Shown here: positions 335 to 17,639 of the stretch, in pieces
How positions within the stretch are numbered: position 1 is the first letter of the stretch
How the letters are laid out: each line of letters starts with the position of its first letter
Assembly: GCF_014696225.1 (NCBI RefSeq)
Contig: NZ_JACJPV010000014.1
Coordinates: 1 to 64,000 of the forward strand
Source: Anabaena sp. FACHB-1237
Lineage (GTDB): Bacteria > Cyanobacteriota > Cyanobacteriia > Cyanobacteriales > Nostocaceae
Length of the DNA stretch: 64,000 nucleotides
Direction of reading: 5' to 3'
Translations under genes and position numbers: made by a program
Notes under the pieces: model-generated
Database searches by the model: none
What the model was told of the DNA's origin: nothing
What the model saw: the letters and a program-made list of their open reading frames with translations, nothing else

Positions 335-1111
335 TTAAATTCCTGCACCATCTAAAAATTCTTGTATGGTTTTGTCTCTGATATTACAAGCGGGTGCTTG
401 ATAATATCCTTGATGTTTTAATTGTTCATCTAAGATATCCATAGCAGTGACTAAAACAGGAGTTTTACTATTTGACCGTATATCTTTAAGCTCTTGAAGT
501 TGCGCTTCTAAGGCTTCAATACGATCTACTAAAGTGCGGATGACTTGAGCTTCAGAGTCAGGTAAATTATTATGTTCTAGGGGAGCAACACGCACTCCAG
601 AACGGTGAATAATGCGGCCAGGAATACCAACTACTGTACAACTCGAAGGTACGTCTCGCAAAACTACTGAACCCGCACCAATGCGGACATTATCACCTAT
701 TTGAATGTTTCCTAAAACTTTTGCACCTGCGCCAACCACGACATTTTCCCCTAAAGTGGGGTGACGTTTACCACTTTCTTTACCAGTACCTCCAAGAGTG
801 ACACCTTGATAGATAAGCGCGTAGTCACCAACTATGGCGGTTTCACCAATAACTACACCCATACCATGATCAATAAATACACCTTTACCAATAACTGCGC
901 CGGGGTGAATTTCTATACCTGTGAAAAAGCGGGCGATATGAGAAATTAAGCGGGGTATGAAAGGAATACCAATTTTCCGCAATGAGTGAGCCAGTCTATG
1001 GAAGAGGAGAGCTTGTAAGCCAGGATAACAGAATAATACTTCTAACCAATTACGGGCGGCTGGATCACGTTCAAAAATGATGCGGAAGTCTGTTTTAAGT
1101 GTAGATAGCAT
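335..1111 (-). CDS. cysE: Serine O-acetyltransferase
   Basis: Transfers an acetyl group from acetyl-CoA to L-serine, the first step of cysteine synthesis in the cytoplasm. The 258-residue protein has the short helical N-terminal domain of the family followed by left-handed beta-helix hexapeptide repeats (about residues 65-165). The conserved [13 protein letters not shown] segment (His82) and GKRHP (His117) match the catalytic histidine regions, and the IPGRI turn near 165 is typical. The tail after residue 175 (about 80 residues) is longer than in the short CysE forms and contains a predicted coiled coil ([10 protein letters not shown]). The ATG at 1111 begins the usual [10 protein letters not shown]-terminus. 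It is transcribed away from its right-hand neighbours. Family assignment is firm; regulation by cysteine feedback is family knowledge, not visible here. Confidence 0.95.
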
Positions 1112-1278
1112 CGAGATAGTAACCTTGTTAGGTAAAACGAGTTACACTTTTAATTTTATCGCAAGTTGGTAAGAATAGGAGTCAGGAGTTCAAGGAGTCA
1201 GTAGGGGTAAAACAGTGCTAAACCCTTTCACGAGTCAGAATAAACAATTTTCTCGCTGCTCCTTGCTTGCTACTCACT

Positions 1279-1500
1279 TTGTTTTACAGTTAAAGTATTG
1301 TATTTGAGTACCTGTCAAATCAATTGTACCTACCCAGATCCGATAAGTGCCTTTTTTCCATTGGCGATCGCTTACACTAGGATCTGCAATTTTACCATTA
1401 TCATCACCACAGCCAATAGTTTCCTAATCTGGATGTTGCACAAATAATACAGTAACAGTATCTGCTTTGTGATGTGAGATCCTCGAATATTTTCTAATTT
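1279..1500 (-). pseudogene. Decayed C-terminal fragment of a PPC-like secreted domain
   Basis: Read on the minus strand, this gap encodes a protein-like stretch with the segments ADTVTVLFVQHPD, an in-frame stop, then ETIGCGDDNGK, KGTYRIWVGTID and a last Cys near QYFNC. The pattern (a D-T-V strand, a GCGDDNG turn, then GTYRIWVGT) resembles the beta-sandwich pre-peptidase C-terminal type domains common in cyanobacterial exported proteins. There is no start codon and the frame is interrupted by one TAG, so it is most likely a relic. Assignment to a family is by eye and weak; the existence of a coding relic is better supported. Confidence 0.45.
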
Positions 1501-1514
1501 GAGGATCGCTGTTT

Positions 1515-3212: not shown

Positions 3213-3507
3213 TTGACTTTTTTACTTCCACTTTATCATCTCAAATTATGATTTTTATTTTACTATTAATGTAAGCTATTTATAAAAGTAGCAACAGAAA
3301 ATAAATTTATCCCTATTATATACTAGGGTGTATTATGTGTAAATAGCAACTTATTATCAGCGATAATAAATACATTTATAAGTAATTAAATGTAGATAAC
3401 CGCAGATGATTTTGTACTTGATTAGATGAAAAAATGTTGCTACTTTAGGCAAACAATCCTATAATTTTGACAATATTTCCATTCTATTTACATTCACAAT
3501 AAAGTTG

Positions 3508-3855
3508 ATGACTTCTCAAACCTTCTCTCAAATTAGCGTCACCGAATTAGCTGAATACTTAAAAACAAATGATGGTACAATTCAACTGATAGATGTGCGT
3601 GAACCTCAAGAATTGGCACTATCACGTTTACCAGGTTTTGTCAATCTTCCCTTGAGTGAATTTTCTCAATGGAGTGAAAACATATTTACTCAGTTTGATA
3701 TGAATGCAGAAACGTTTGTTCTATGTCATCATGGAATGCGTTCTGCTCAAATGTGTCAATGGTTAGTAGATCAAGGATTTACCAAGGTAAAAAATATTAT
3801 AGGTGGAATATCAGAATATTCTATTAGAGTAGATCCGACAATTCCTCAGTATTAG
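3508..3855 (+). CDS. Single-domain rhodanese-like sulfurtransferase
   Basis: A 115-residue single rhodanese domain. The LIDVREPQELALS segment is the CH2A-type motif, and the active-site loop CHHGMRS carries the candidate catalytic Cys at residue 73 counted from the ATG at 3508. Such proteins carry sulfane sulfur as a persulfide in the cytoplasm, and the acceptor cannot be inferred. A TTG lies directly before the ATG (3505); the ATG is the more natural start. The six-residue loop beginning with Cys is the size associated with sulfur rather than arsenate or phosphate substrates. It has no operon partner: the next gene, hrcA, begins more than 400 bp downstream. Confidence 0.9.
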   Translation: MTSQTFSQISVTELAEYLKTNDGTIQLIDVREPQELALSRLPGFVNLPLSEFSQWSENIFTQFDMNAETFVLCHHGMRSAQMCQWLVDQGFTKVKNIIGGISEYSIRVDPTIPQY

Positions 3856-3858
3856 AGT

Positions 3859-4281
3859 TGTCAATTTTTAATCAATTCTTAATTGTTATGACTACTTATA
3901 ATTACTTTTCATTTTGTTAATTATATATGGCGATCGCTACGCTAGGCTATCAGCGATGTAACGGAATGAAAAGGTTATTTTGTAGTAAAACTTACAACAA
4001 ATTTTCTCATCAATGAGATAGAATCTTAGATAAGTTAGATAACATAGGAATTAACCCTATTTTATCATTCATTATTGGATAATTTTTCTTTAGCTGTGTG
4101 AGTATCAATAAGTACATAATATTTCCCCAGCTAGGAAGTTGTAAACGAACCTAAATGTAGTATAAATAATTTATAATCTGGGATTAATTAATAATTAACC
4201 TTTTTGTGGTGTAAACCACGAATTTTTAACAACCTTTAATAAACCTTTGAAAAAAATTTGTCGTCAGCACAAACATAACCT
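3859..4281. other. Leader region of hrcA, no gene seen
   Basis: About 420 bp without a coding frame. It contains a GCGATCGC site and the imperfect palindrome around 3930-3965 (GGCGATCGCTACGC with a downstream TATCAGCGAT), a repeat style common in cyanobacterial gaps. I looked for the CIRCE operator (TTAGCACTC-N9-GAGTGCTAA), the HrcA target, and did not find it, so hrcA does not look autoregulated through CIRCE. Confidence 0.5.
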
Positions 4282-5358
4282 ATGCAAGTCCAGTTAACTA
4301 ATCGCCAACAACATATACTTTGGGCAACTATACGTCATTACATTGCTACTGCTGAACCTGTAGGCTCTAAAGCTCTAATTGAAGAATTTGATTTAGGTAT
4401 TAGCTCTGCTACTATACGTAACGTGATGGGAATGTTAGAAAAATCGGGTTTATTGTATCAACCCCATACTTCTGCGGGTAGGATTCCCTCTGATTCAGGT
4501 TATCGTATTTATGTAGATCAATTAATTACGCCATCAGATATTTTAGCGAAAGAAGTAGAAGCGACATTACAACAGCGTTTACACTGGGAAGATTGGAGTT
4601 TGGAAGCATTGTTGCAAGGTGCAGCACAAATTCTAGCTACTTTAAGTGGTTGTATTACATTAATTACGATGCCACAACTAAATACAGCGAAATTGCGCCA
4701 TTTGCAATTAGTTCAAATGGAACCAGGCAAAATCATGTTAATTATGGTGACAGATAATTATGAGACATATTCTAAACTAATGGATGTATGTCTGATATCC
4801 TCAGAAGAGGAATTAGAAGCAGAGGTAATTGATCATCAATTACAGATAGTTTCTAACTTTTTGAATAGTCAATTAAAAGGACAAAGTTTATTAGAATTAG
4901 CGGCGATTGATTGGAGTAAAATAGATCAAGAATTTCAAATTTATGGAGAATTTTTAAAGAATTCTTTGGTAGAATTAACTCGTCGAGCGATCGCTCCCAC
5001 AACAACACAAATGATGGTACGTGGAGTCGGGGAAGTTTTAAGAAAACCGGAATTTTCCCAAGTTCAACAAGTACAAAATATCATGCAATTGCTAGAAGAA
5101 GAACAGGAACAATTATGGAGATTAATTTTTGCAAGTTCAGAAATAGAAGATAGCAGTAAACTAAAAGTTACAGTAAGAATTGGTGCAGAAAACCCTCTAG
5201 AACCTCTAAAAAGTTATAGTTTAATATCCTCTAATTATCGTCGGGGATCTATACCTGTGGGAAGTGTGGGAGTTTTGGGACCAACTAGGTTAGACTATGA
5301 AAATGCGATCGCTCTAGTTGCAGCAGCAGCAGATTATCTTTCAGAAGCGTTTAGTTAG
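4282..5358 (+). CDS. hrcA: Heat-inducible transcription repressor HrcA
   Basis: Represses class I heat-shock genes (groESL, sometimes dnaK) by binding CIRCE operators. The 358-residue protein begins with the winged-helix N-terminus [17 protein letters not shown], followed by the recognition region [18 protein letters not shown] and the [10 protein letters not shown] motif, all diagnostic of HrcA. The middle is the GAF-like domain and the end carries the conserved [15 protein letters not shown] motif near residues 325-340. Length is normal for the family. The ATG at 4282 gives the standard N-terminus. The next gene begins 44 bp downstream on the same strand and may be co-transcribed. grpE, a possible regulatory target, lies far away at 47 kb. 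Confidence 0.97.
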
Positions 5359-5402
5359 CTGTTATTAATTAGCTATTAGCACCCCATACCCTTTGAGAAT
5401 AT

Positions 5403-6053
5403 ATGTTAAGAAAAATTACATTTGGTGTATTATGGATAGGATTTATTTCCTATGCTTTTGTATTTGCACCTCCTGAAGATCCCCATACCTTCGAGTTAAT
5501 TAAAAACCTGTCCACTGGAAACTGGCAAAATATTAATCCCATCATTATTGCCTTATTTAATATTATGGGAATTTGGCCATTTATCTACAGTACAATAGTG
5601 TTTATTGATGGTAGAAATCAAAAAATTCCTGCTTGGCCATTTGCTACAGCGTCCTTTGCTTTAGGTGCATTTGCATTATTACCCTATTTAGCATTGAGAT
5701 CAGAAAATCGAGAATTTACAGGTCAAAAAAATCTGTTTTTAACAATACTTGATTCTCGCATTTTGGCTATTTTATTAACATTAACATCCCTAGGAACATT
5801 AAGTTTAGCATTTTCAGGAGACTGGAGTAATTTTTGGCAACAATGGCACAACAATAGATTTATTCATGTCATGACTTTAGATTTTATCATGTTGAGTCTC
5901 TTATTTCCTACATTAGTAACAGATGATCTGGCAAAAAGAGACTTTAAAAATAAAGAAATGACACAAAAAATCATTTCTCAATTGTCATTAATTCCCTTTG
6001 TTGGAGCTTTAATATATTTGTGTTTGCGTCCACAAATAACGTCCAGCAAATAA
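5403..6053 (+). CDS. Conserved multi-pass membrane protein of unknown function
   Basis: A 216-residue protein with about six hydrophobic segments (roughly residues 4-22, 45-66, 78-97, 118-139, 155-172 and 192-210). Polar features are the FAPPEDPHTF loop after the first segment and a short Asp/Lys-rich loop near 175-188. I recognise the general look of a protein conserved in cyanobacteria and plastid-bearing eukaryotes but cannot name a family with confidence. The gene follows hrcA by 44 bp and converges on the aldo/keto reductase gene with an 18-bp gap. No catalytic motif is seen. Confidence 0.75.
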   Translation: MLRKITFGVLWIGFISYAFVFAPPEDPHTFELIKNLSTGNWQNINPIIIALFNIMGIWPFIYSTIVFIDGRNQKIPAWPFATASFALGAFALLPYLALRSENREFTGQKNLFLTILDSRILAILLTLTSLGTLSLAFSGDWSNFWQQWHNNRFIHVMTLDFIMLSLLFPTLVTDDLAKRDFKNKEMTQKIISQLSLIPFVGALIYLCLRPQITSSK

Positions 6054-6071
6054 CATTACATTTACTTTAAC

Positions 6072-7016
6072 CTACTTTAACCAAGGACGGGTAATTTGTT
6101 CTAACTGCATTAACTCATCATCCGTCATTGTCCAACCTAAAGCGCCAACGTTTTGTTGAACCTGTGCAGCATTTTTTACTCCAGCAATGGGAATAACATT
6201 ACCTTGAGCAATTAACCAGTTTAAAGCAACTTGGGCAGGAGTGCGTTGATATCTTTCACCAATTGCTTGCAATAATGATAACACTGGAGAAATCTTTTGT
6301 AATCCATCTTGACTAAATCGCGGATCTATGCTCCTTGCTCCCGTAGGTTTGTCGGATGCGGTATATTTACCTGTTAATAATCCCTGAGCCAAAGGACTGT
6401 AGGCTAAAATTGTTACATTTAAATCACGGGCTTTTTGGAAAATACCATTACTTTCAATTTGTCTAGTAAGTAAAGAATAACGGACTTGGTTCACAGCTAA
6501 AGGTATTCCTCTAGCCTGTAATATCTGATATACTTCTTCCATTTGTGATGCCGAATAATTACTGACACCAATTGCACCTATGCGTCCTTTTTGGACTTCA
6601 TCAGCCAAAGTATTCATTAATGTTTCTTGACTAAGAAAAAACGCAAACGGCCAATGAACTTGATATAATTCAACTCTTTCAACTTGTAAACGTTGCAAAC
6701 TAGCTGTTAATGCTTCAGAAACAGAATTGCCATCCCAACGCCAAGGTAATGGTCCAAACTTAGTAGCAATTTGCACATTTTGGGATGTTTGTTTCATAAA
6801 CTTTCCTAAAAATTGTTCAGAAAGTCCTAACCCATAAACTTCCGCAGTGTCAAAAAAAGTTACTCCAGCATCTAAAGCCTTAGTAAAAGCTGCGTATAGT
6901 TCGTTTTCTCCGTAATTATCGCCATAATTCCAGAATAGTTTATCACCCCAAGCCCATGTTCCTAAACAAAGTTGGTTAACAGTAATGCCGTTTTTTCCCA
7001 GAGTAGTAGTTTGCAC
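6072..7016 (-). CDS. Aldo/keto reductase
   Basis: An NADPH-dependent oxidoreductase with the (beta/alpha)8 barrel of the AKR superfamily, 314 residues. The catalytic tetrad is visible: Asp and Tyr in FFDTAEVYGLG (about residues 55-65), Lys in IATKFGPLPW (about 84) and His in YQVHWPF (about 120). The C-terminal part carries the LAYSPLAQGLLTGKY motif and the usual cofactor-binding stretch IPIAGVKNAAQVQQN. The substrate cannot be told from sequence. The gene is transcribed toward the rightward membrane-protein gene, and its start faces mtnA across a 227-bp divergent promoter region. Confidence 0.93.
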   Translation of the reverse strand: MQTTTLGKNGITVNQLCLGTWAWGDKLFWNYGDNYGENELYAAFTKALDAGVTFFDTAEVYGLGLSEQFLGKFMKQTSQNVQIATKFGPLPWRWDGNSVSEALTASLQRLQVERVELYQVHWPFAFFLSQETLMNTLADEVQKGRIGAIGVSNYSASQMEEVYQILQARGIPLAVNQVRYSLLTRQIESNGIFQKARDLNVTILAYSPLAQGLLTGKYTASDKPTGARSIDPRFSQDGLQKISPVLSLLQAIGERYQRTPAQVALNWLIAQGNVIPIAGVKNAAQVQQNVGALGWTMTDDELMQLEQITRPWLK

Positions 7017-7243
7017 AGTGGTAAGATTTTAGTGTAATAGATAGTAGTTGAGCTTTAGCTTTAATAGTAGCGATTCGACCAGATTTATCTTGCTTTTGCG
7101 ATAAAGATAGTCCTTCCTCATCAAATATATTATAACAGGTTTTTTTGATGTTCAGATCCCAAGAAATCGGGTATATTTTAACTGATAAAACTTGTACCTG
7201 GTATACTACCTTTTAGTTTTTAAGAATCATCAAGTATAAACTT

Positions 7244-8305
7244 ATGAATCAAGTTATGAATCAAGTATATCCAGTTATTTGGCAGAATAATTCTGTATTA
7301 TTAATTGATCAAACTCGCTTACCTAATGAATATACATTAGTTGAGATTAATCGTAGTGAGGATATGGCAGAAGCAATTAAAAATATGATTGTTAGAGGTG
7401 CGCCAGCAATAGGTGTAGCAGCAGGATATGGAATTTATTTAGGTGCAAGAGAAATAGAGACAAGCGATCGCTCACAATTTCTGGTTAAACTAGAAGAAAC
7501 CGCTAAATTACTGCGTGCTACCCGTCCAACTGCGGTAAACTTATTTTGGGCAATTAGTAGAATGTTAAAAACTGCCTACGAGACAGTAGGGAAAGTATCA
7601 GAGATTCAACAAGCACTCTTAGCCACCGCCCAAGCCATACACGCCGAAGATATTAAAACCTGTAAAGCCATCGGAGATCACGGTTTAGCAGCATTACCAA
7701 GCAAACCAGATAAATTAATTATTCTTACCCATTGTAACGCCGGAGCTTTAGCAACCGCAGGATATGGTACAGCATTAGGGGTAGTGCGTTCCGCTTGGAG
7801 TGCTGGAAGATTAGCTAGAGTATATGCAGATGAAACTAGACCGCGTTTACAAGGGGCAAAACTGACAGCGTGGGAATGTGTCCAGGAACGAATACCAGTC
7901 ACTCTTATTACTGATAATATGGCTGCTCACTGTATGAAGCAGGGTTTGATAGATGCTGTAGTTGTAGGTGCAGATCGTATTGCAGCTAATGGTGATACAG
8001 CGAATAAGATTGGTACTTATAGTTTAGCTATAGTTGCTAAAGCCCATAATATTCCGTTTTTTGTGGCTGCACCTTTATCCACAGTTGATTTTGAACTCAC
8101 AGAAGGTAGTCAGATACCCATAGAAGAGCGTCATCCTGGCGAAATTTATCAAGTTGGTGATACTATTTTGACACCGCCGGGCGTGGAATTTTATAATCCG
8201 GCTTTTGATGTGACACCAGCAGCATTAATTACTGCTATTATTACTGAGAATGGGGCTTTTGCTCCCCAGGAGTTGTATAAGGCGAATGGAGGTAACAATA
8301 ACTAA
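7244..8305 (+). CDS. mtnA: S-methyl-5-thioribose-1-phosphate isomerase
   Basis: Converts 5-methylthioribose-1-phosphate to 5-methylthioribulose-1-phosphate in the methionine salvage pathway. The 353-residue protein shows the family motifs [15 protein letters not shown] (about 49-63), TRPTAVNL (93-100), the catalytic Cys164 in [11 protein letters not shown] and Asp244 in [12 protein letters not shown], and the [10 protein letters not shown] end. The sequence MNQVMNQV at the start comes from a duplicated 12-bp ATGAATCAAGTT unit, so either ATG 7244 or ATG 7256 could be used; the shorter start leaves an intact protein. No other methionine-salvage gene is adjacent. eIF2B-alpha-like relatives lack this Cys/Asp pair, so the call is secure. 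Confidence 0.95.
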
Positions 8306-8332
8306 CTACACCTCGCACAGACTAAAAATCTA

Positions 8333-8361
8333 GGTTGGGTAGAACTAAGTGAAACCCAACC
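8333..8361. terminator. Bidirectional hairpin between convergent genes
   Basis: Arms GGTTGGGT and ACCCAACC form an 8-bp stem with a 13-nt loop, between the ends of mtnA and the DUF4926 gene. There is no good T-run, so it may be a dispersed repeat that also serves as a terminator. A similar GGTTGGGT...ACCCAAC unit occurs at about 50008-50035. Confidence 0.45.
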
Positions 8362-8370
8362 CACAATTAG

Positions 8371-8622
8371 TTATACTGTAACCATTTCCTGTACTAAATT
8401 AGGTGGTGCTGGATCAAAATGTAAAACCATAATTTGTTCTGGACGCAACCCAACAGATTGATATGTTTGTCCATTACTATCACTAAATTCTACTTCAAAC
8501 GCAGCACCATCAGCTAATAATTCAACTATTGTACCAACTTGACCACGTAACAAGTTATATTCAGGTAAGTCAACTGTTAATGCTACTACGTCTAGTAGAT
8601 CGAGTGCAGTAATTTTACTCAT
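8371..8622 (-). CDS. DUF4926 domain protein
   Basis: An 83-residue protein with the DUF4926 pattern: a DVVALTVDLPEYNLLRGQVGTIVE strand-turn region around the RGQVGT core, then FEVEFSDSNGQTYQSVGLRPEQI. It resembles small KOW/SH3-like beta barrels. Function is unknown. In cyanobacteria DUF4926 genes often sit just downstream of DUF6883 genes, as here (22-bp gap), and the pair has a toxin-antitoxin-like arrangement, though that role is only speculation. Confidence 0.8.
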   Translation of the reverse strand: MSKITALDLLDVVALTVDLPEYNLLRGQVGTIVELLADGAAFEVEFSDSNGQTYQSVGLRPEQIMVLHFDPAPPNLVQEMVTV

Positions 8623-8644
8623 TTTCTATAATCTCCATGTATTT

Positions 8645-8878
8645 TTATACTAAAGGATAACAGGAAGTTAAGCTGGGAATTTCAGAACCAGATTTAATAA
8701 TCCAACCAGTGCGAATAGTTGCAGTTCTATTGTGCCATTCCAGAGTAAAGTCTAGTGTGTAGCGTTGTCCATATTCATCATACCTATTCAAACTAACTTC
8801 TTGAGTTTTTACTTTTTCTAAAATAATTTGGCGTAATTCCTCAGCATTTTCAGCAGTCATACCTAAAATGGATGAAAA
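8645..8878 (-). pseudogene. DUF6883 gene truncated at the transposon boundary
   Basis: An ATG at 8860 opens 71 codons, but homology to the DUF6883 family appears to continue upstream in frame: codons for FSSILG lie directly before MTAENAEELR, matching the ALGLTAENAEELR core of full-length relatives. The frame then meets a stop inside the transposon end, so the first 35-40 residues (normally a short strand and the KARVFASALG helix) are missing. The C-terminus (DEYGQRYTLDFTLEW, TSCYPLV) is intact. The missing piece is not on the other side of the element. The 71-codon remainder could still be translated, but I treat it as a broken gene. Confidence 0.6.
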
Positions 8879-8879
8879 T

Positions 8880-8928
8880 TGTCCATTAAATAATTATTGT
8901 CCATTTTAAAGAATTACTGTCCAATTTT
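8880..8928. repeat. tnsB-side transposon end with TnsB-site repeats
   Basis: Starts TGTCCATTAAATAATT and contains three spaced TGTCC units (8880, about 8898 and 8918) separated by AATTATT and TTTTAAAGAATTA spacers. It matches the reverse complement of 17484-17532 at 44 of 49 positions. The fourth base is C here but A at the other end, so the outermost hexamer is TGTCCA, not the TGTACA seen at the far end. Confidence 0.8.
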
Positions 8929-9072
8929 TATTCACCGCTAAAATCTTTACTCATGAATGGTTTTGGCGATTTTGCTTTTAATTATATCTTATCCTTATTT
9001 TTAAAGCAAATGATGTCACAAATATTGTAAAATATTAAATTAAATGATGACATAATTTTTAGAGGTGAGCTT

Positions 9073-10728
9073 ATGCCCAAAAAGCCTATAAATAAAGCCT
9101 TTCCAGGATTCGAGACTGAAGAGGAGGATGGGGCGGAAGACAAAAACCTGCTTGTTAATGAAGATTCTCCAGAGTATCTCAAAAAGGTGGAATTGATTGA
9201 TGCCATTCGTCAAGCACCTGACAAGGTAGCTCGTAAGAATGCGATCGCAGATGCAGCGAAAGCTCTGGGGAAAAGCACTAGAACTATTAAGCGCATGATC
9301 GAGAAAGTGGAACAGGTAGGAGTAGCCACTTTAGCTGTTGGACGTAAAGACAAAGGACAATATCGTATTTCTAAGGAGTGGCATGATTTTATTATTAGCC
9401 TTCATCAGTGGGGTAATAGAGAAGGTTCTCGGATCAATCACCATCAGATTTTTGGATATTTAAAAGCCTTGGCTTCACAAGGAGAGAAACTACGAGATAA
9501 GAAACATCATGAGAAATTTAAGGGATATTCTCAAGTAAGGGAAGACCTAATATTAGGTAAACACCCTTCTCATGTCACTGTTTATAAAGTGATCAACTCC
9601 TATTTAGAAGCTAAACATAAAAAAGTTCGTCATCCAGGTTCACCGATAGAAGGGCAAATTCTACAAACAACTGATGGTATTTTAGAAATCACCCACAGTA
9701 ACCAAATTTGGCAAATAGACCATATTAAATTAGATATTTTGTTAGTTGACGAAGAAGACCATACAGTAATTGGTCGTCCATACATCACCTTGGTTATGGA
9801 TAGTTATTCTGGTTGTGTCACAGGTTTTTATCTGGGTTTTGAAGCTGCTGGTTCTCATGAAGTCGGTTTAGCTCTGCGTCATGGAATTTTACCAAAGCAT
9901 TATGGACAAGAGTACGAACTTGAAAAAACATGGGAGATTTGTGGAATACCTGAATATATAATGACAGACCGTGCGAAGGAATTTAAGTCTGAACATTTAA
10001 GACAAATTTCCTTACAGTTAGGTTTTATACGGCGGTTACGTGCTTTCCCATCAGCAGGTGGTTTAATTGAGTCTATTTTTGACAAAATTAATAAAGAAAT
10101 TCTGTCTTTGTATGGTGGATACACTGGATCAAGTATTGAGGAACGTCCTCCTGAAGCTGAAAAAACTGCCTGTCTGACCCTGGATAAACTAGAGAAAATA
10201 TTGGTGAAATATTTTGTAGATCACTATCATTGTGATGATTATCCAAGAGTAAAAAATCAAAAACGTATTGAGCGATGGAAATCTAGTTTTTTACTGGAAG
10301 AACCTGAACTTATTGATGAGCGTGAACTAGATATTTGTTTAATGAAAGTTGCCATACGCAATGTGGAAAAATATGGTTCTGTTAATTTTCAAGGTTGGGT
10401 GTATGAAGGAGATTGTTTATTAGATTATGAAGGTAAGCAAGTTTCTTTAAGATATGATAAGCGAAATATTACCACAGTTTTGGCTTACTCTCACCCTATC
10501 AATGGCGAACCTGGAAAGTTTATTGGTATTATCCAAGCTAAAAATTGCAAACGAGAAAGGATGTCTCTAGCCGAGTTAAATTATACCAAGAAAATATTGC
10601 GTGAATCTGGTAAATACGTGGATAATTCATCTATTTTAAACGAGCGGTTATCTAGATTTGAGGATGTTGAACAAAATCGCAAGGAGAGACGTAGACAACG
10701 TGTCACAAACGAACTTAGCCCATGCTGA
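9073..10728 (+). CDS. tnsB: TnsB-family DDE transposase of a type V-K CAST
   Basis: The RNaseH-fold transposase that recognises the element ends and joins the 3' ends to target DNA. It has 551 residues. N-terminal helix-turn-helix DNA-binding regions lie around 40-90 and 100-190. The integrase core shows the catalytic triad Asp216 (WQIDHIKLDI), Asp299 (IMTDRAKEF) and Glu333 (GGLIESIF). A Mu-type C-terminal beta-barrel (about 425-490) and a basic tail (RKERRRQR) that recruits TnsC in relatives follow. The ATG at 9073 has a GAGGTGAG ribosome site. V-K TnsB proteins are usually a little longer, about 580 residues. All catalytic residues are present, so it may still work, but tnsC and tniQ behind it are broken. 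The end overlaps the tnsC remnant by 29 bp. Confidence 0.9.
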   Translation: MPKKPINKAFPGFETEEEDGAEDKNLLVNEDSPEYLKKVELIDAIRQAPDKVARKNAIADAAKALGKSTRTIKRMIEKVEQVGVATLAVGRKDKGQYRISKEWHDFIISLHQWGNREGSRINHHQIFGYLKALASQGEKLRDKKHHEKFKGYSQVREDLILGKHPSHVTVYKVINSYLEAKHKKVRHPGSPIEGQILQTTDGILEITHSNQIWQIDHIKLDILLVDEEDHTVIGRPYITLVMDSYSGCVTGFYLGFEAAGSHEVGLALRHGILPKHYGQEYELEKTWEICGIPEYIMTDRAKEFKSEHLRQISLQLGFIRRLRAFPSAGGLIESIFDKINKEILSLYGGYTGSSIEERPPEAEKTACLTLDKLEKILVKYFVDHYHCDDYPRVKNQKRIERWKSSFLLEEPELIDERELDICLMKVAIRNVEKYGSVNFQGWVYEGDCLLDYEGKQVSLRYDKRNITTVLAYSHPINGEPGKFIGIIQAKNCKRERMSLAELNYTKKILRESGKYVDNSSILNERLSRFEDVEQNRKERRRQRVTNELSPC

Positions 10729-10878
10729 TCTAGAATTTAAGCAGCAGTCTAATACCAGTTCCCAACTAGTTGAGGAGTTACGGCGATCGCCATCCCATTC
10801 AATAACATCGGCTGAAGTTGAACGGATTGGTACAGCTAACACTTACCTTCCCTTAGACCGCGATACGGAATTGTTTGA
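10700..10878 (+). pseudogene. tnsC: 5' remnant of tnsC
   Basis: From a GTG at 10700, overlapping the end of tnsB in the +1 frame as tnsC does in these operons, about 60 codons are open. They end with AEVERIGTANTYLPLDRDTELFD, which fits the N-terminal linker before the WLDGKR and Walker A region of V-K TnsC proteins. At about 10877 the similarity stops abruptly and the sequence continues as tniQ in another frame. TnsC is the AAA+ regulator that forms filaments on target DNA; the whole ATPase core is lost. The match is by recollection of the family and is moderate; position and frame support it. Confidence 0.6.
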
Positions 10879-11094
10879 CTGTTATGTGCTGCGTGTTATG
10901 CAGAACAGCCATATCATAGATTGGAGTGGCAGTTTCAATCCACTGTGGGGTGCGAGTGCCACAAGCTGCGTTTGCTTTCAGAGTGTCCCTTTTGCAAAGA
11001 GCGTTTTCCTATTCCTGCTTTGTGGGAACAGGGAGAATGCAACAAGTGTCATGCGCCTTTTAGAAGTATGAAAAAGCGACAAAAATCTTACTAA
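10879..11094 (+). pseudogene. tniQ: 3' remnant of tniQ
   Basis: Seventy-one codons ending in TAA at 11094 encode the zinc-binding C-terminus of TniQ: LLCAACYAEQPYHRLEWQF, CECHKLRLLSECPFCKERF, PALWEQGECNKCHAPF and the final MKKRQKSY. The Cys/His spacing and the PALWE block are typical of the short V-K TniQ. A TGA stands directly upstream in this frame, and the N-terminal half is absent. An overlapping frame (10658-11071) looks open for 137 codons but only spans the tnsC piece and then runs out of frame through this tniQ piece. Confidence 0.8.
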
Positions 11095-11350
11095 GTAATG
11101 CTTTAATTAGGTTTTTCTCGCTGTAAGGTATAATGAAGTGCGCTCGCATCTCTGGATGAAGGTAAATCTGTGATTCCTGTGTGGTTAGATATTATTTATC
11201 AGGAGTTACAAAAAAATTAAAAGCTCAAATAAACCGAATTAGTGCATTTACTTGTATATAATAACGATAAGCTATTTAAGTATTTCATATCAGCTTATCT
11301 ACCTGATTGAGAAAGATGAGAAGTAAAGTTAAAAAGGAGTCTTGTTAGTA
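11095..11350. other. Gap in CAST with a short coding relic
   Basis: Codons 11140-11220 on the plus strand read ALASLDEGKSVIPVWLDIIYQEL and stop at TAA. The composition is protein-like but there is no start, so it may be the tail of a lost cargo gene. A TATAAT at about 11129 could be a -10 box. An AGGAG at 11335-11339 serves the next gene. Confidence 0.35.
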
Positions 11351-12874
11351 ATGAGAATTAATAGCTTAGATGATCTAGATAGACTGGAATCTAAAATAGG
11401 TCAGCATCTCAGAAAATTTAAACTAGGGGATATTTTACACTCTTTACATTCTAAACGAGAACAAATAGAGCCTTTTATAATAGCAGAATTAGCTTTATTT
11501 GCTATTAGATATTGCTCGCCAAGCAAGAAGAATATACAACTAAAAAAGAATATACGATCTGAACAATTAACATATTTATGTAAATTAGTTGGGCAATATC
11601 TCAGCACAGATCCTATTGCTTTGGATCAAACCCTAAAGGATGAATTCATTGAGTCTAATCCTATATTTCTGCTTTTCAGAATTGCAAATAAACAATTTCC
11701 ATTTCGAGTTTACCCCTATAGCCAGTTTTCTAGACCAATATTAATATATTATGAAATTCCTGCTGCTTTAAATGTTAATCAAGAAATTCATAAATCTTTT
11801 GACATTATTCAGGAGTTTCAAAATCTTAATGGTGTATCTATTCCTGAGTTTACTAACTTTCTATTTGTACTACTGTCATATTTAAAAGTTTATTCGACTT
11901 TTTCTCTGGATGATATATTACGTCAGGCACGATCAAATGGAATTAATATACCTGACGATAAAGGTATATCTATTATCATGAGCCAATTGGCAGGAGATCA
12001 AAATAAGTTAATTAATCTTTATCGAAAACGGCAAACTAAAGACCGCCGATTTAAAATGTATGATTTAAGTCCTTTTTTTGAGTTGCCTGTAGTTTATCCT
12101 TGTACAAATAGAGGCTTTAACGATTTTGGTAATGATATTATAAGCTCGCCCATTCCTGATTTAATTGCCCAAAGAAACTCCATTGGGATATATTATCAGT
12201 TATTTAATAACTTTAAAACTAAATTTTCTACATACTTTGGTCATGTATTTGCAAAATATGTAGAGACAGTTTTGAAAAATTCTATCACTTCAGAAACGCT
12301 AATTGATATTGACCGTGAACTCGATGAATCTTATAAAGGAAAGAAACCAGATTATGCAATTATTGACGGCAGTTTAGTTATTCTTTTTGAATGTAAGGCA
12401 ATTAAATTCAGAAAAGATGCTAAGACTATGGCTACTGAAGAAGAAATTAATAAGACTCTAAATGATGTCATAGATGGAATACAACAGATAGATGAATTTA
12501 CAAAGAATTGTCAAGCTAACTTGCCAAATCTTCAAAAATTTGATAAATATAAAATTTTTAAGCCAGTATTAATAACTTTTGAAGATTTTTATCTAATTAA
12601 TGATTATTTTTTTCGAGATTATATAAATAAATTTTTGAAAGAAAAAGGAGTTAGTTGCTTTGATTGGCAAATACTTTCAATAGGTGAACTAGAAGAGTTA
12701 CAACCCCATCTATCACAAGGAATTCACTTATCTCAAGTTCTACAAGATTTAGAACAAAAAACATTTAATGATGTACTAGAAGACTTGACTGCAAAAACTC
12801 AAAAAACATATAAAGACTCTTTTCTCTATCCTAAGCAGGAAGAACTATATCAACGTCTTGGTATTCCCGACTAA
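11351..12874 (+). CDS. Uncharacterised cargo protein with a PD-(D/E)XK-like nuclease motif
   Basis: A protein of 507 residues from the ATG at 11351 (AGGAG 11 nt upstream; a TTG at 11342 is less likely). The N-terminal 300 residues are helical and unrecognised. Near residues 335-350 the segment KKPDYAIIDG...VILFECKAIKF has the D-(strand)-E-C-K order of the PD-(D/E)XK nuclease fold, preceded by a helix with GHVFAKYVE. A helical C-terminus follows. This layout, a large helical region plus an ECK nuclease core, is common in anti-phage or restriction proteins, which fits its place among CAST cargo. It is AT-rich like its surroundings. The function is inference; no named defence family is recognised. 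Confidence 0.7.
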   Translation: MRINSLDDLDRLESKIGQHLRKFKLGDILHSLHSKREQIEPFIIAELALFAIRYCSPSKKNIQLKKNIRSEQLTYLCKLVGQYLSTDPIALDQTLKDEFIESNPIFLLFRIANKQFPFRVYPYSQFSRPILIYYEIPAALNVNQEIHKSFDIIQEFQNLNGVSIPEFTNFLFVLLSYLKVYSTFSLDDILRQARSNGINIPDDKGISIIMSQLAGDQNKLINLYRKRQTKDRRFKMYDLSPFFELPVVYPCTNRGFNDFGNDIISSPIPDLIAQRNSIGIYYQLFNNFKTKFSTYFGHVFAKYVETVLKNSITSETLIDIDRELDESYKGKKPDYAIIDGSLVILFECKAIKFRKDAKTMATEEEINKTLNDVIDGIQQIDEFTKNCQANLPNLQKFDKYKIFKPVLITFEDFYLINDYFFRDYINKFLKEKGVSCFDWQILSIGELEELQPHLSQGIHLSQVLQDLEQKTFNDVLEDLTAKTQKTYKDSFLYPKQEELYQRLGIPD

Positions 12875-12946
12875 CAGGAGTAACACCGACAAACGACAAC
12901 AAAATTCTTTTAACATCCATTTTTTAGAAAAAAATCGAAACCTAGT

Positions 12947-14119
12947 ATGAACCCCGAAGACTTTCAAAATACTCCTACAGGTAGATTAGTACAAATAGAA
13001 GAAGGTAAAAATCCTTGTTATGCTTTTGTTCCTAATCCCCTACCACCAATAATTGAACTGGATATAGAAATTTGGCGTACTCTTTCAGATGCAGACCGCG
13101 CTTTAGGTGAACTTGCCGGATTAGGACGTACCATGCCAAATCCTACTTTACTTATACGTCCATTTATTCGTCGTGAAGCTGTTCTTTCTTCACGAATTGA
13201 AGGAACGCAAACAAATATAACTAATCTTTATGCTTATGAAACAGGACAACTCTCACTTCCTGGTGTTGTCCCTCCAGCACCCGAAGGAGATGCACAAGAA
13301 GTATTAAATTATGTGCGTACACTAGAGTACGGATTAGATAGACTTAGTAGCTTACCAATTTGTTTACGTTTTATATGCGAACTTCATGAACGCTTAGTAG
13401 ATGGTGTGCGCGGCAAAAATGCGGCTCCCGGAGAATTTCGTCGTTATCAAAATTACATTGGTCAATCAGGATCTATTATCAACGATGCTCGATTTATTCC
13501 TCCTCCTGTACCCGAAATGCACCAATGCCTAAATGAACTAGAAAAATATTTACATGATAATTGTAATTATCCACCATTGATTCGAATAGGTTTAATTCAT
13601 TATCAGTTTGAGAGCATTCATCCATTTATGGATGGTAATGGACGGATCGGAAGATTACTAATTTCACTACTTTTATTGAACTGGAATTTATTGCCATTAC
13701 CCTTACTTTATCTCAGTGCTTACTTTGAGAGACATAGACAAAAATATTACGACTTTATGTTAGGCATCAGTAAGCATGGTAATTGGCGTGAGTGGCTGAT
13801 ATTTTTTCTACAAGGTGTCACAGAACAGTCAAAAGATGCGGTTATTCGGTCAAAAAAGTTACAAGATTTACAAATTCAATGGAGAAACGAATTAACTCAA
13901 GCCCGTGCCACTGCCTTATTGTTACGTCTTGCAGACAGCTTGTTTGAGTCACCTATTATTACTATTCCCCAAGCTCAGGAAATTCTGGAAGTTACATATC
14001 GATCCGCACAACAAAATGTTGAAAAACTTGTTAACGCTGGTATCTTGTTGCAGGTAAGTGAAGGTTCTTACGGTAAGGTATTTATTGCGCCACAAGTCTT
14101 ACAAGTCATAGAGGAGTAA
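12947..14119 (+). CDS. Fic-family AMPylation protein with built-in inhibition helix
   Basis: A 390-residue class II Fic protein. The active-site loop HPFMDGNGRIGRLL (around 223-236) has the catalytic His and all the conserved residues, so adenylyl transfer is expected. The inhibitory helix motif (S/T)xxxE(G/N) is present as SRIEGT near residue 86 within LSSRIEGTQTN, so the enzyme is autoinhibited until released. An N-terminal Fic-associated domain precedes the core, and a C-terminal winged helix (about 325-385, IPQAQEILEVTYRSAQQNVEKL) suggests DNA binding or autoregulation. It lies 72 bp after the nuclease-like gene on the same strand inside the CAST, so the two may form one cargo module. Confidence 0.9.
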   Translation: MNPEDFQNTPTGRLVQIEEGKNPCYAFVPNPLPPIIELDIEIWRTLSDADRALGELAGLGRTMPNPTLLIRPFIRREAVLSSRIEGTQTNITNLYAYETGQLSLPGVVPPAPEGDAQEVLNYVRTLEYGLDRLSSLPICLRFICELHERLVDGVRGKNAAPGEFRRYQNYIGQSGSIINDARFIPPPVPEMHQCLNELEKYLHDNCNYPPLIRIGLIHYQFESIHPFMDGNGRIGRLLISLLLLNWNLLPLPLLYLSAYFERHRQKYYDFMLGISKHGNWREWLIFFLQGVTEQSKDAVIRSKKLQDLQIQWRNELTQARATALLLRLADSLFESPIITIPQAQEILEVTYRSAQQNVEKLVNAGILLQVSEGSYGKVFIAPQVLQVIEE

Positions 14120-14469
14120 ATATACTTAAATTATACTTTTTGCTTTAAAAATATAATTTTATCAAATAGAATTGTACTTGAATATCAATTCATGGAAAAC
14201 CTTACGGTGGTTACTTTTTACTAGAAAATAGCAAGCGATTATCTACAATAAGCTACGCTAACGTTCTCAATATCCTAAATTTTCTTCTGATGTTATATCA
14301 TTATATCATCTCCCCAAACGTAGTAAAACACCGATGACACCAGGCATCAACCCACAACGCTGGAACTTTAAACCTACGCCCCGCAATTAGGACACTCAGA
14401 CAGCAAACTTAAATATTATGTGTTGTGCGATCGCGCCTATTCATCTAAAAATATCAACAGCAATCGAAC
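14120..14469. other. Gap in CAST cargo between convergent genes
   Basis: About 350 bp between the fic gene (plus) and the hsdR-peptidase fusion (minus). A short plus-strand open stretch ending at about 14387 reads TPGINPQRWNFKPTPRN after an ATG at 14334. It has no ribosome site and looks like a relic. A GCGATCGC site occurs near 14428. Nothing else is recognised. Confidence 0.35.
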
Positions 14470-14904
14470 TCAATAACTACTCAAGGGAGAACGGTTCAAC
14501 TCATCCTTATATAATTTCCAATTGGGCATAAATTTATTCATCAAAGCCTCAAAGCGATCGCCATGATTCCTTTCTAGGAGGTGTACAATCTCATGTACCA
14601 CTACATACTCTAAACATTGCTGATCCTTCTTCGCTAATTCGAGATTTAGCCAGATGCGTTTGGCTTCTATATTGCAAGTACCCCATTTGGTTTTCATCAG
14701 TTTTACCCCCCATTCGTTGACGGTAACGCCTATGTTCTTTTCCCACTTAGCGATCAATCGGGGAATTTCCTGTTTTAGCTGCTGTCTATACCAAGACATC
14801 AGTCGGTGTTGCCAATTTCCCAAATAGCGGTAATTTAGCTGGTGCTGGAATAACTGCACCACACGGTTTTGGGTTTGACGTTCTTTTGCACCGACTTGAC
14901 TCAT
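14470..14904 (-). pseudogene. Deletion fusion: HsdR N-terminus joined to YgjP-type metallopeptidase C-terminus
   Basis: An open frame of 144 codons. Residues 1-32 (VGAKERQTQNRVVQLFQ, then YRYLGNW) are the N-terminus of type I restriction HsdR subunits. From about residue 33 it changes to a YgjP/DUF45 metallopeptidase: LMSWYRQQLKQEIP, KLMKTKWGTCN, and the zinc site HEIVHLLERNHGDRF with HExxH and the further His. In many bacteria this peptidase gene follows hsdR in the operon. A deletion of most of hsdR plus the peptidase's N-terminus, in frame, explains the structure. The fusion might be translated and could keep the zinc site, but it has no HsdR motor or nuclease. Confidence 0.75.
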
Positions 14905-15201
14905 TATATTACCCTCATTGTCAGAATCACCGATTAATACGGATTAATGGATTACACGGATGGAATGGTGTAAATGGTGGAGTGGATGGGTTAGGGATCG
15001 GGTTTTGGGCTGTGTAGGTTTTTTGATGTGATCTTTTACCTGTAGGTATCAGGCTAAGATTTATCCTATGTATTACGTTTATTTATACATAAAAATCCAA
15101 GTAATAACATTTTACATATTTATTTCTGTGTAATCCTTTAATCTGTCTAATCTGTGATTCTGACGTTGATTAAGAATTGTTAACTAATCTCGTTTTTCCG
15201 G

Positions 15202-15429
15202 TTAATCAATAATTTCCTCATATTGATTGGTGTCGTCTGCTTGAGATTGTTTTATCTCTGCTAATACATCTGTTAAAGTTTTTTCATCTAGCCATTGATG
15301 ACGTTCTTTGGTATAGTCTCCCTTGCCGGGATGGAAATATTGAATAAATCGAATGGTATCGGCAACTCCCAGAGAGTTAATTAGGGCATCGTAGCCTTGT
15401 TTGATAATTTCATTTTGAGTTTTCATCAT
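15202..15429 (-). CDS. Small protein downstream of a PIN gene
   Basis: A 75-residue protein (start MMKTQNEIIKQGYDALINSLG) with a helical, acidic C-terminus (QSQADDTNQYEEIID). It begins inside the last 20 bp of the PIN-domain gene, so the two are translationally coupled. The set could be a toxin-antitoxin module. The order toxin first and partner second is less common, and I do not recognise an antitoxin DNA-binding fold. The LINSLGVADTIRFIQYF core recurs in small proteins near restriction operons and PIN genes by general experience. Function unknown. Confidence 0.6.
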   Translation of the reverse strand: MMKTQNEIIKQGYDALINSLGVADTIRFIQYFHPGKGDYTKERHQWLDEKTLTDVLAEIKQSQADDTNQYEEIID

Positions 15430-15895
15430 TATTTTCCTCTGCTTGTGTTACTTCTGCCAGCCATTGCACAGGGTTGTTAATTTTGATATTAATTAATTGA
15501 GAATTTGTTTTTGCTTTTTTAATGAGTCTGTCGTCTGTAGTGAGAAATACATCTGCTTGACTTCTTTCTGCACTGGCGATGTGAGTAGCATCATAACTGG
15601 AGAATCCTAATTTTTGGAGTTGGGTAGCTCTGTTTTCAATAAAAGGGCTACTAATAACTTTAATTTTAGCAATGGAGAGTAATTTTTTAACATTTTCTAG
15701 TCTTTCTAAGTCGGGGGTTTGGTTTGATTCGGCGATTAAAGCACTGCTGTTAATTAGTTTCCAAGTCCCTGATTGACACTGACTCAGAATTGTTATTACT
15801 GCCTGTGCTTCTAGGTAAATACGTGGTTGGGTTGGATCGTCAAATGGACGGTTTAAACAACAAACATCAAGATATATTTTATACTGATTTGTCAT
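15410..15895 (-). CDS. PIN-domain protein (probable VapC-like ribonuclease)
   Basis: A 161-residue PIN-fold protein. Acidic residues expected for the metal site are visible: Asp10 in IYLDVCCLNRPFDD, Glu53 in ALIAESNQT, Asp104 in GFSSYDATHIASAE, and DVFLTTDDRLIKKA near 115-128. PIN proteins cleave RNA and commonly act as toxins. The YLDVCCLNRPFDDP opening is a distinct cyanobacterial subgroup often found without a classical antitoxin. It is placed between hsdS and the hsdR remnant and overlaps the following small gene by 20 bp, so it was part of the restriction operon carried by the transposon. Confidence 0.85.
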   Translation of the reverse strand: MTNQYKIYLDVCCLNRPFDDPTQPRIYLEAQAVITILSQCQSGTWKLINSSALIAESNQTPDLERLENVKKLLSIAKIKVISSPFIENRATQLQKLGFSSYDATHIASAERSQADVFLTTDDRLIKKAKTNSQLINIKINNPVQWLAEVTQAEENNDENSK

Positions 15896-15903
15896 AGGGT
15901 TTA

Positions 15904-16578
15904 TTAATCTAAATTATATTTTAGGCGAGTTTTTCCAGTAAGAAGTTCTTGCATCATCCCCTGTTTTATGGCTTTGTATTTATCGCGCTTTTTTTCTAAG
16001 GCTTCAATTTCTGCCTCTATGTCACTGAGAACTTGGGCGATCGCTTTTTGTTCTGTAAGAGGAGGACAAGGTATTTTGAACTGACTAATTCCCTTTACTG
16101 TTAATTGAGGTTGTGCGCTTCCAAATACAATTCTGTCAATCTGATTTTGTACAATATCTGATTTTAAAATGCCATATAGATAAGAAGTATCTAAATATTT
16201 AGATTCATTTCTTAAAATGACCATTCCTGAATTTATGCGAACATGATTAAAACCAACCGAATCATCAAAAAATGCAATATTGCCTACAGTTCCTCTTGTC
16301 GTTAAAACCACATCATTTCTAATTAGCTTACCATTTCCTAAAAGCCTATCTTTTTCTTGTGTAATAAACATACATTCCAAAAATTTAAACCCTTCTTTTG
16401 TTACATTTTTAGCACTTAAAAATAAGCAGTACCCATTCTCAAAAAGTTCATTATTACTTGGGTAATTAGCTCCTCTATCTCCATTTATTACTTTACCTAT
16501 TTCTTCAAAATTTTTTACCTCCCAATCATCAGGAATAATCCCCACCTCAGTCTGTTTATAGCCTTCTTGTATTTTCAT
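15904..16578 (-). CDS. hsdS: Half-length type I restriction specificity subunit (HsdS)
   Basis: A 224-residue protein with a complete HsdS N-terminus (YKQTEVGIIPDDWEV), one target-recognition domain and the central/C-terminal coiled coil EQKAIAQVLSDIEAEIEALEKKRDKYKAIKQGMM. Normal HsdS has two recognition domains and about 400 residues, so this copy has one. Half-size subunits can dimerise and read palindromic sites in some systems, so it need not be dead. The ATG at 16578 is favoured over a GTG at 16590 because hsdM ends at 16584. The partners HsdM and HsdR are broken, so restriction by this locus is not expected. Confidence 0.85.
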   Translation of the reverse strand: MKIQEGYKQTEVGIIPDDWEVKNFEEIGKVINGDRGANYPSNNELFENGYCLFLSAKNVTKEGFKFLECMFITQEKDRLLGNGKLIRNDVVLTTRGTVGNIAFFDDSVGFNHVRINSGMVILRNESKYLDTSYLYGILKSDIVQNQIDRIVFGSAQPQLTVKGISQFKIPCPPLTEQKAIAQVLSDIEAEIEALEKKRDKYKAIKQGMMQELLTGKTRLKYNLD

Positions 16579-16583
16579 GCTTA

Positions 16584-16730
16584 TTACCACACTATCCCCA
16601 TTTTCTGAAGATGTCCTTCAACCTTAGCCGTCAACTTATCCACCCTACTTGTCAACTCTGGTAAAGGTGTATCATACCGTTGTTCTGCTAACTCCTTAAT
16701 TCTTTGCGTCAACCGTTGCGAAATCCGATC
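16584..16730 (-). pseudogene. hsdM: C-terminal remnant of HsdM methyltransferase
   Basis: The last 48 codons of a type I modification subunit are readable (DRISQRLTQRIKELAEQRY, TPLPELTSRVDKLTAK, EGHLQKMGIVW, stop at 16584). They sit 5 bp ahead of hsdS, as in intact operons. Upstream the frame is closed by a TAG at 16731 and nothing of the methyltransferase core remains. In another frame 16735-16790 reads KIRDIDNPRTTKIQDFD, which may be another scrap. The loss continues into the tracrRNA region, so one deletion may have removed hsdM, cas12k and the tracrRNA 5' part. Confidence 0.65.
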
Positions 16731-16788
16731 CTATCGAAGTCCTGAATTTTGGTTGTACGAGGATTATCAATATCTCTTATTTTACTAC

Positions 16789-16855
16789 AAAAGTAAGGGA
16801 ACGGGTATACCGTCATGGTGGCTACTGAACTACCACCCCCTAATTTTTATTTTTG
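16789..16855 (+). ncRNA. 3' remnant of the CAST tracrRNA
   Basis: The segment AAGTAAGGGAACGGG, then GGTATACCGTCATGG and GTGGCTACTGAACTACC, followed by CCCCCTAATTTTTATTTT, has the order and sequence feel of the 3' part of V-K tracrRNAs, including the GTGGCTACTGAA block just before the anti-repeat. The first 150 or so nucleotides expected upstream are missing: the region directly left of it is restriction-operon debris. A functional guide scaffold is therefore unlikely. Identification rests on memory of published V-K tracrRNAs and on position before the repeat. Confidence 0.6.
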
Positions 16856-17040
16856 GCAAATCAAAGTGGGGTCAAAAACCTTGGGGATCTGCCAAATCTT
16901 TTAAAACCTTATCCTAACTGACTTTCAAGATTTTGAAGGCGATTCTAATATCGCTTTTTGGTGCTGGAAAACAAGTTTTGAAGTACATCTGCCAAAATTG
17001 CCTGTAGAAACCAGTAGAGATAAGCATTTTGATGGGAGCG

Positions 17041-17152
17041 GTTTCAACCGTCCTATCTATAGGTGGTGGGTTGAAAGAAAATAAAAGGCTTGTGTCTTTT
17101 TATGGTAGGATAACTGATTAGGGTGGTTATGAAAGGAGTGCTGCGATCGCAC
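17041..17152 (+). CRISPR. Minimal V-K array: one 37-nt repeat, a spacer, a half-repeat and a homing spacer
   Basis: The full repeat spans 17041-17077, starting GTTTCAACCGTCC and ending GGTGGGTTGAAAG, the terminal sequences shared by V-K CAST repeats. A 42-nt spacer (17078-17119) follows, then a degenerate 3' half-repeat at 17120-17135 (AGGGTGGTTATGAAAG), then the homing spacer from 17136. In V-K elements a delocalised, degraded repeat-spacer unit after the main array guides insertion to the home tRNA. Only one normal repeat remains, so the array has shrunk. Confidence 0.8.
17136..17152 (+). other. Homing spacer matching the adjacent tRNA-Ala gene
   Basis: Seventeen bases, GAGTGCTGCGATCGCAC, are identical to the tRNA-Ala(CGC) gene on the minus strand at 17570-17586. 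On that strand the protospacer is preceded by GTA (17589-17587), which fits the GTN-type PAM reported for Cas12k. The match covers the 3' side of the D arm and the anticodon arm. Identity stops after 17 nt, which fits the short complementarity known for homing spacers. Note that GCGATCGC inside it is also the genome's commonest 8-mer, but the other 9 matched bases and the position make chance unlikely. Confidence 0.85.
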
Positions 17153-17483
17153 GACAAAATAGTGGTTTTTCCTGGTAAACCAGCTTTGCTGTAGTGAAAG
17201 CTGCACCGGAAAGATGAGGATTTTCTAGTGAAATTCTGGATAAACGACTTTAGGGATATGCCTAAAATCTCATGTAAAATTTTTAGGTAATGCGAGTTTG
17301 CTTAATGATCTTAATAATTTTTAACCAAATGATCTTACCATTGGTGCATGGTTTGAAGTTAAATTTTACTTGTCTGGTTTTGTCTAGTGTAAATTGTCCA
17401 TCTTTTTTTGGACAAAAATTCTTTAAAACTGGCTCAATAGCTGAAATCCCTGAAAATGCTTAGCTTGTGTCACTTGTCTCTGG

Positions 17484-17532
17484 AAAATTGGACAATAATT
17501 CTTTAAAAGTGACAACAATTATTTAATGTACA
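17484..17532. repeat. CRISPR-side transposon end with TnsB-site repeats
   Basis: Read inward from 17532 it begins TGTACATTAAATAATTG and repeats TGTC units (17532, about 17514 and 17494), mirroring the other end. A further pair of sites, GGACAAAAATTCTTTAAAA at 17410-17428 and TTGTCC near 17394, extends the array inward. TGTACA at the tip is the terminal hexamer of well-studied V-K elements. It lies 54 bp from the PAM-proximal edge of the tRNA protospacer, near the 60-66 bp spacing known for Cas12k-guided insertion. Confidence 0.8.
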
Positions 17533-17534
17533 AA

Positions 17535-17607
17535 TGGAGAATAGGAGACTCGAACCCCTGACCTCTGCGGTGCGATCGCAGCACTCTACCAACTGAGCTA
17601 ATTCCCC
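17535..17607 (-). tRNA. tRNA-Ala (anticodon CGC)
   Basis: A complete cloverleaf of 73 nt. Acceptor GGGGAAT pairs with ATTCTCC (one G-U). The D stem is GCTC/GAGT with AGTTGGTA loop. The anticodon stem CTGCG/CGCAG encloses ATCGCAC with anticodon CGC. The T arm is AGGGG TTCGAGT CTCCT, and the discriminator is A. CCA is not encoded. The 3' end lies 2 bp from the CAST tip, and the anticodon arm is the target of the CAST homing spacer. The gene itself appears intact after insertion. Confidence 0.95.
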
Positions 17608-17639
17608 AAACCAACTACATTATATTTTAACATTATATT

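Follow-up and report, generated by a model that had tools for sequence, protein, structure and literature searches.

An anchor spacer matching the flanking tRNA-Ala(CGC) gene in a type V-K CAST remnant of Anabaena sp. FACHB-1237

Features of the element and its flanks

The window analysed here is a stretch of 64,000 nucleotides from Anabaena sp. FACHB-1237 (contig NZ_JACJPV010000014.1, positions 1 to 64,000). An element spanning positions 8880 to 17532 of the window carries a tnsB gene near one end and, near the other, a CRISPR repeat and a spacer that is identical to part of the adjacent tRNA-Ala(CGC) gene. We named the ends following PMC9938897, with the CRISPR/tRNA side as the left end and the tnsB side as the right end. 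L181 and L182 are intact sister elements to which the window was aligned. The features of the locus are as follows.

8645 to 8879, minus strand: truncated DUF6883 gene, joined to the tnsB-side end (Pfam PF21814, 1.1e-13)
8880 to 8929, plus strand: right (tnsB-side) end, tip TGTCCA and then TGTCC repeats (90% identity to the inverted other end)
9073 to 10728, plus strand: tnsB of a type V-K CAST, without approximately the last 90 codons (PADLOC TnsB_0_V-K, 7.3e-132; PDB V-K TnsB, 6.3e-104)
10700 to 10879, plus strand: tnsC remnant, approximately residues 5-61 (tblastn 2.9e-15 against L181 TnsC)
10882 to 11091, plus strand: tniQ remnant, last 70 residues (tblastn 1.2e-40, 91% identity to L181 TniQ residues 102-171)
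11342 to 12874, plus strand: cargo, distant GapS1-like protein (NF047931, 3.6e-18, below its cut-off)
12947 to 14119, plus strand: cargo, Fic protein of the SoFic type (PF02661; PADLOC SoFic, 6.9e-116)
14470 to 16731, minus strand: cargo, what is left of a type I restriction-modification island (reading frames named in the text)
16746 to 16900, plus strand: 3' part of the tracrRNA region (85% identity to L181 17366-17517)
17041 to 17077, plus strand: the one full-length CRISPR repeat left, 37 nt, GTTTCAACC...GGGTTGAAAG (type shared with the repeats of the L182 array)
17120 to 17135, plus strand: truncated, delocalised repeat R*, AGGGTGGTTATGAAAG (1-base insertion relative to the lineage form AGGGTGGTTTGAAAG)
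17136 to 17152, plus strand: anchor (homing) spacer GAGTGCTGCGATCGCAC, 17 nt (exact protospacer match; the only such pair in the genome)
17380 to 17532, plus strand: left (CRISPR-side) end, with end repeats at 17408-17431 and 17488-17511 and the tip TGTACA at 17527-17532 (aligned to sister elements)
17534 to 17608, minus strand: tRNA-Ala(CGC), the home site (ARAGORN and Rfam RF00005)
17570 to 17586, minus strand: protospacer in the anticodon arm of tRNA-Ala(CGC) (identical to the 17-nt spacer)
17587 to 17589, minus strand: PAM GTA, 5' of the protospacer on its own strand (17589-17587)

In cyanobacterial type V-K CASTs, R* is approximately 12 nt long, the anchor spacer is usually 17 nt, the protospacer usually lies in a tRNA gene and the PAM is GTN (PMC9938897). 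The crRNA that addresses the att site is truncated, located apart from the array and mostly tRNA-directed (PMC11406308). The window shares with known type V-K CASTs (ShCAST, AcCAST and AnCAST) a V-K TnsB, the ends, a tracrRNA remnant and a CRISPR repeat, as well as a truncated repeat followed by a 17-nt spacer that matches the adjacent tRNA, a GTN PAM and a tRNA gene that faces the element (PMC9938897, PMC11406308). Its ends are of the TGTACA type with short inner repeats, as in L181, and the TGTCCA tip of the right end is also found in the intact sister elements L181 and L185. Type I-F3 CASTs likewise possess a categorised guide for a chromosomal att site (PMC11406308), but they are Cascade-based and use non-tRNA att sites (guaC, yciA, ffs and rsmJ).

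Losses within the element were mapped against the intact sisters L181 and L182, whose TnsB proteins are 78-82% identical to that of the window. Homology of the window TnsB, which is of the V-K type, to L181 TnsB stops at residue 549 of 638, and the C-terminal tail is missing. Only remnants of tnsC and tniQ are present, mutually out of frame. Homology to L181 resumes at position 16746, where the hsdM-like tail of the cargo abuts, and upstream of this point we found no homology. Since position 16746 corresponds to 396 bp past the L181 cas12k stop, cas12k and the tracrRNA core have been deleted. A search for cas12k gave no NF038191 match on the contig of the window (C6), and the tracrRNA, of which only the 3' part from 16746 persists without its core, gave no Rfam match. 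The intact lineage-B elements L181, L182, L183 and L186 keep cas12k, unlike the window, and two of them, L181 and L182, also showed CRISPR arrays. All four have the same R* type and the same tRNA-Ala(CGC) target as the window, with insertion 54-55 bp from the PAM.

Having lost the 3' end of tnsB, the greater part of tnsC and tniQ, the whole of cas12k and the core of the tracrRNA to deletions, the element is no longer able to move by itself. Judged from its gene content, the copy is a decayed V-K CAST remnant, an ordinary fossil and not an intact member of the group. Compared with type V-K CASTs, the window copy is without cas12k, functional tnsC and tniQ, the tracrRNA core and a target-site duplication, and its far end lies at another locus; for these reasons the original prediction of a complete, self-consistent record of RNA-guided homing was not borne out.

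Amid the CAST remnants, the cargo between 11342 and 16731 encodes a Fic protein of the SoFic type, a distant GapS1-like antiphage protein and a protein with a PIN domain, and it includes degraded type I restriction genes. The remains of the type I island comprise a YgjP-like metallopeptidase reading frame, the PIN-domain protein with its partner, a short hsdS and the probable C-terminal tail of hsdM. In L186, homologues of window positions 14464-14801, 15818-16053 and 16584-16731 are located upstream of its cas12k.

The anchor spacer, its target and competing explanations

The spacer on the plus strand is identical to the minus strand of tRNA-Ala(CGC) at all 17 positions, R* lies directly 5' of it and ends at 17135, and the transposon end TGTACA lies 54 bp from the PAM edge. 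The original prediction had all coordinates of this match right. GTA precedes the protospacer when read on the protospacer strand, as had been claimed, and the PAM is GTN in 56 of 56 comparable loci. The proposal that the half-repeat is the delocalised V-K repeat agrees with the layout of R* and anchor spacer described in PMC9938897. The distance of 54 bp was also correct, but its description as close to 60-66 bp required correction. Natural V-K elements have a PAM-to-left-end distance of 46-82 nt (PMC9938897), and since 13 copies with the R* type of the window were measured at tRNA-Ala(CGC) and 10 of them show exactly this spacing, 54 bp is the usual value of the lineage.

We next compared 59 stretches downstream of Cas12k genes from the same family, in which spacers after GAAAG or GAAGG were tested against the adjacent inverted DNA. 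Of these, 56 had a spacer that matched the neighbouring DNA next to a GTN PAM, with 46 matches inside tRNA genes of 12 anticodons and the others in other DNA. Three stretches contained no match, one of which is cut by the contig end. Given these 56 adjacent matches and the range of tRNA genes among them, our comparison indicates that the anchor spacer follows the gene or tRNA that flanks it, which supports the predicted role as a tRNA-directed homing spacer of a V-K CAST.

Our data favor, with a probability of roughly 0.93, the explanation that 17120-17152 is the truncated repeat and 17-nt anchor spacer of a type V-K CAST that homed to tRNA-Ala(CGC) and later decayed. While the element was active, a crRNA from the R*-spacer unit would have led Cas12k to the anticodon arm of tRNA-Ala(CGC) beside the GTA PAM. 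TniQ, TnsC and TnsB would then have carried out the insertion at the 3' edge of the tRNA gene, 54 bp downstream, and thereby joined the CRISPR-side end to the tRNA, and the deletions in tnsB, tnsC, tniQ, cas12k and the tracrRNA core would have come later. We infer this past use of the guide from the match and its setting. The 1-base insertion in R* relative to its lineage counts against this explanation. The element is of a known kind, and the locus leaves the general picture of V-K CASTs unchanged; it contributes a clear relic of guide-directed homing to tRNA-Ala(CGC), a frequent home site that two separate Cas12k lineages have reached with differing guide rules.

Since both ends and the R*-spacer unit are kept, the element might instead be a non-autonomous passenger that is still mobilised in trans by another CAST, with a foreign Cas12k using its guide. 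The same genome does contain a candidate helper on contig C24 (positions 1-16000), where a nearly complete Cas12k belongs to an element that sits at tRNA-Leu(CAA) and has an exactly matching anchor spacer of its own. However, an apparent frameshift splits this Cas12k, which falls in the other Cas12k lineage (lineage A) and is accompanied by a different R* type, and a second copy of the ends of the window element was not found in the genome. We therefore consider mobilisation in trans very unlikely.

The identity between spacer and tRNA could also be due to chance or be driven by HIP1, as both sites hold the cyanobacterial octamer GCGATCGC and the remainder could be luck. This octamer is frequent, with 35 sites in the window, but the spacer/protospacer pair is the only pair of HIP1 sites whose identity reaches 17 bp, the next-longest identities being 15 and then 14 bp. 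The 17-mer occurs at exactly two sites in the 4.65-Mb genome, namely the spacer and the protospacer, and the reversed control of the 17-mer gave no match across the whole genome. With up to 3 mismatches allowed, still only these two sites were found in the window, where shuffles expect 0.02. Together, the two genomic matches, the empty reversed control and the unique 17-bp HIP1 pair answer the concern, raised with the original prediction, that the common octamer would place the same 17 bp at many other sites. Furthermore, the PAM, register, orientation and spacing are all correct, and the fact that 31 further family genomes carry R* with the same guide already refutes chance or HIP1 as the source of the match, which leaves this explanation with a negligible probability.

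Many integrative elements bear tRNA pieces at their ends, and a recombination scar, in which an integrase-type element copied a tRNA fragment that never served as a guide, is comparably improbable. The matching stretch has the opposite orientation to the tRNA gene, sits 380 bp into the element immediately behind a CRISPR half repeat and stops after 17 nt, like its counterparts in other V-K CASTs. In addition, no integrase-type protein was recognised among the element reading frames scanned and no direct-repeat att sites were seen at both ends.

Two junctions at different places

At the far side (window 8860-8900), the tnsB-side end is fused exactly to the interrupted DUF6883 gene. Homology to the left flank of the window ends at 8879/8880 in five related genomes, and in L108 and L109 the DUF6883 gene continues uninterrupted past this point. 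In genome G196, 47 kb separate the DUF6883 locus from tRNA-Ala(CGC) and the two are in opposite orientation; in G046 the distance is 1.2 Mb, and in G005 they are on separate contigs. A 5-bp target-site duplication is absent from the window, with AAAAT before 8880 and AATGG after 17532; in the intact sister L181, both flanks read TATGG. The two junctions of the window element are precise transposase-type joins, but to different places. Because relatives do not have the DUF6883 gene next to this tRNA, and because the exact tnsB-side join comes without a target-site duplication, these comparisons indicate that the two element ends stem from two joining events, and a single clean homing event is thus insufficient to account for the whole element.

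A comparison with related strains that have an empty site had been proposed as a check. G196, G046 and G197 contain the tRNA without the guide, and its 3' edge AATGGAGAATAGGAG is intact at the expected junction. Therefore, the near junction is as expected while the far junction is not.

V-K elements are without TnsA, and intramolecular replicative transposition, which fits a TnsA-less element, leaves one old and one new junction and no duplication. The far end may have come from such an event or from recombination between two copies, and this is the least certain part of our reconstruction. A search of the same genome with the missing half of the DUF6883 gene, aimed at the reciprocal product, recovered only a piece from approximately 600 bp further on, on contig C34, with no CAST end adjoining; deletion, inversion and recombination between copies fit alike. 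The locus also shows the aftermath of homing, with cas12k, tnsC and tniQ lost and a one-sided junction lacking a target-site duplication, which is the kind of product expected of a TnsA-less element that transposes replicatively within a chromosome.

tRNA-Ala(CGC) in related genomes and the guides that address it

In a pattern search over 210 genomes of the family, we found R* together with this guide in 32, including the one studied here, and it occurred in 19 of 391 genomes drawn from the order, a set that overlaps the 210 family genomes. These counts indicate that tRNA-Ala(CGC) is a common, recurrent V-K home site. The suggestion that this target be added to the known home sites is consistent with its recurrence, and no paper naming it was found in a search that was made without the home-site list of Saito et al. 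2021 (Cell).

Copies at tRNA-Ala(CGC) fall into two R* types, A and B, and the window belongs to type B (AGGGTGGTTTGAAAG). We compared type-A copies (L136-L174, e.g., L137, L138, L140, L162 and L166) with type-B copies (L142-L163). All 13 measured type-B copies, including that of the window, match the flanking tRNA at guide positions 14 and 15, whereas 23 of 24 measured type-A copies are mismatched to their own target at one or both of these positions, with A, T or G at position 15 and A or T at position 14. Since position 15 is the third anticodon base, which is fixed in tRNA-Ala(CGC), the guide is what changed. Types A and B are separated with full support in the Cas12k tree, in which the type-A copies at tRNA-Ala(CGC) occupy at least three places with differing letters at position 15.

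The type-A mismatches break the HIP1 palindrome GCGATCGC. Self-duplex predictions gave -18.0 kcal/mol for the unmutated guide, the strongest of those compared, and -9.5 to -14.0 kcal/mol for mutated guides, a difference that is only suggestive as a reason for the mismatches. It is conceivable, though we consider it doubtful, that the tRNA-Ala(CGC) target forces the 10-nt palindrome UGCGAUCGCA, containing the HIP1 core, into the guide, and that the Cas12k lineage of the window keeps this palindrome while in the other lineage changes at positions 14 and 15 broke it repeatedly and convergently, at the cost of a mismatch to the target. If so, V-K homing guides would be selected against self-pairing (or against HIP1) in one lineage and not in the other. 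A general tolerance of lineage A for mismatches at position 15 was rejected as the sole explanation, since spacers at other tRNAs mostly match there. An internal hairpin behind the mismatches is a weak candidate because GAGCGC-type guides fold poorly even without a mismatch.

Other loci show related arrangements. Cas12k fragments are present on contigs C48, C56, C63 and C69 of the genome studied here, with tRNA genes near those on C48, C56 and C63. In genome G003 (C1:3972000-4011400, L184 and L185), three tRNA-Ala(CGC) anchor spacers at 3973912, 3993384 and 4006433 include both R* types, which resembles a stack of CAST insertions at a single home site. Finally, some lineage-B elements (L202, L203 and L207) carry GAGCRCTKCAATGGCAT guides. 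These correspond to the equivalent position in the anticodon arm of a tRNA whose loop contains GGC, which suggests that lineage B keeps one tRNA position while switching tRNA.
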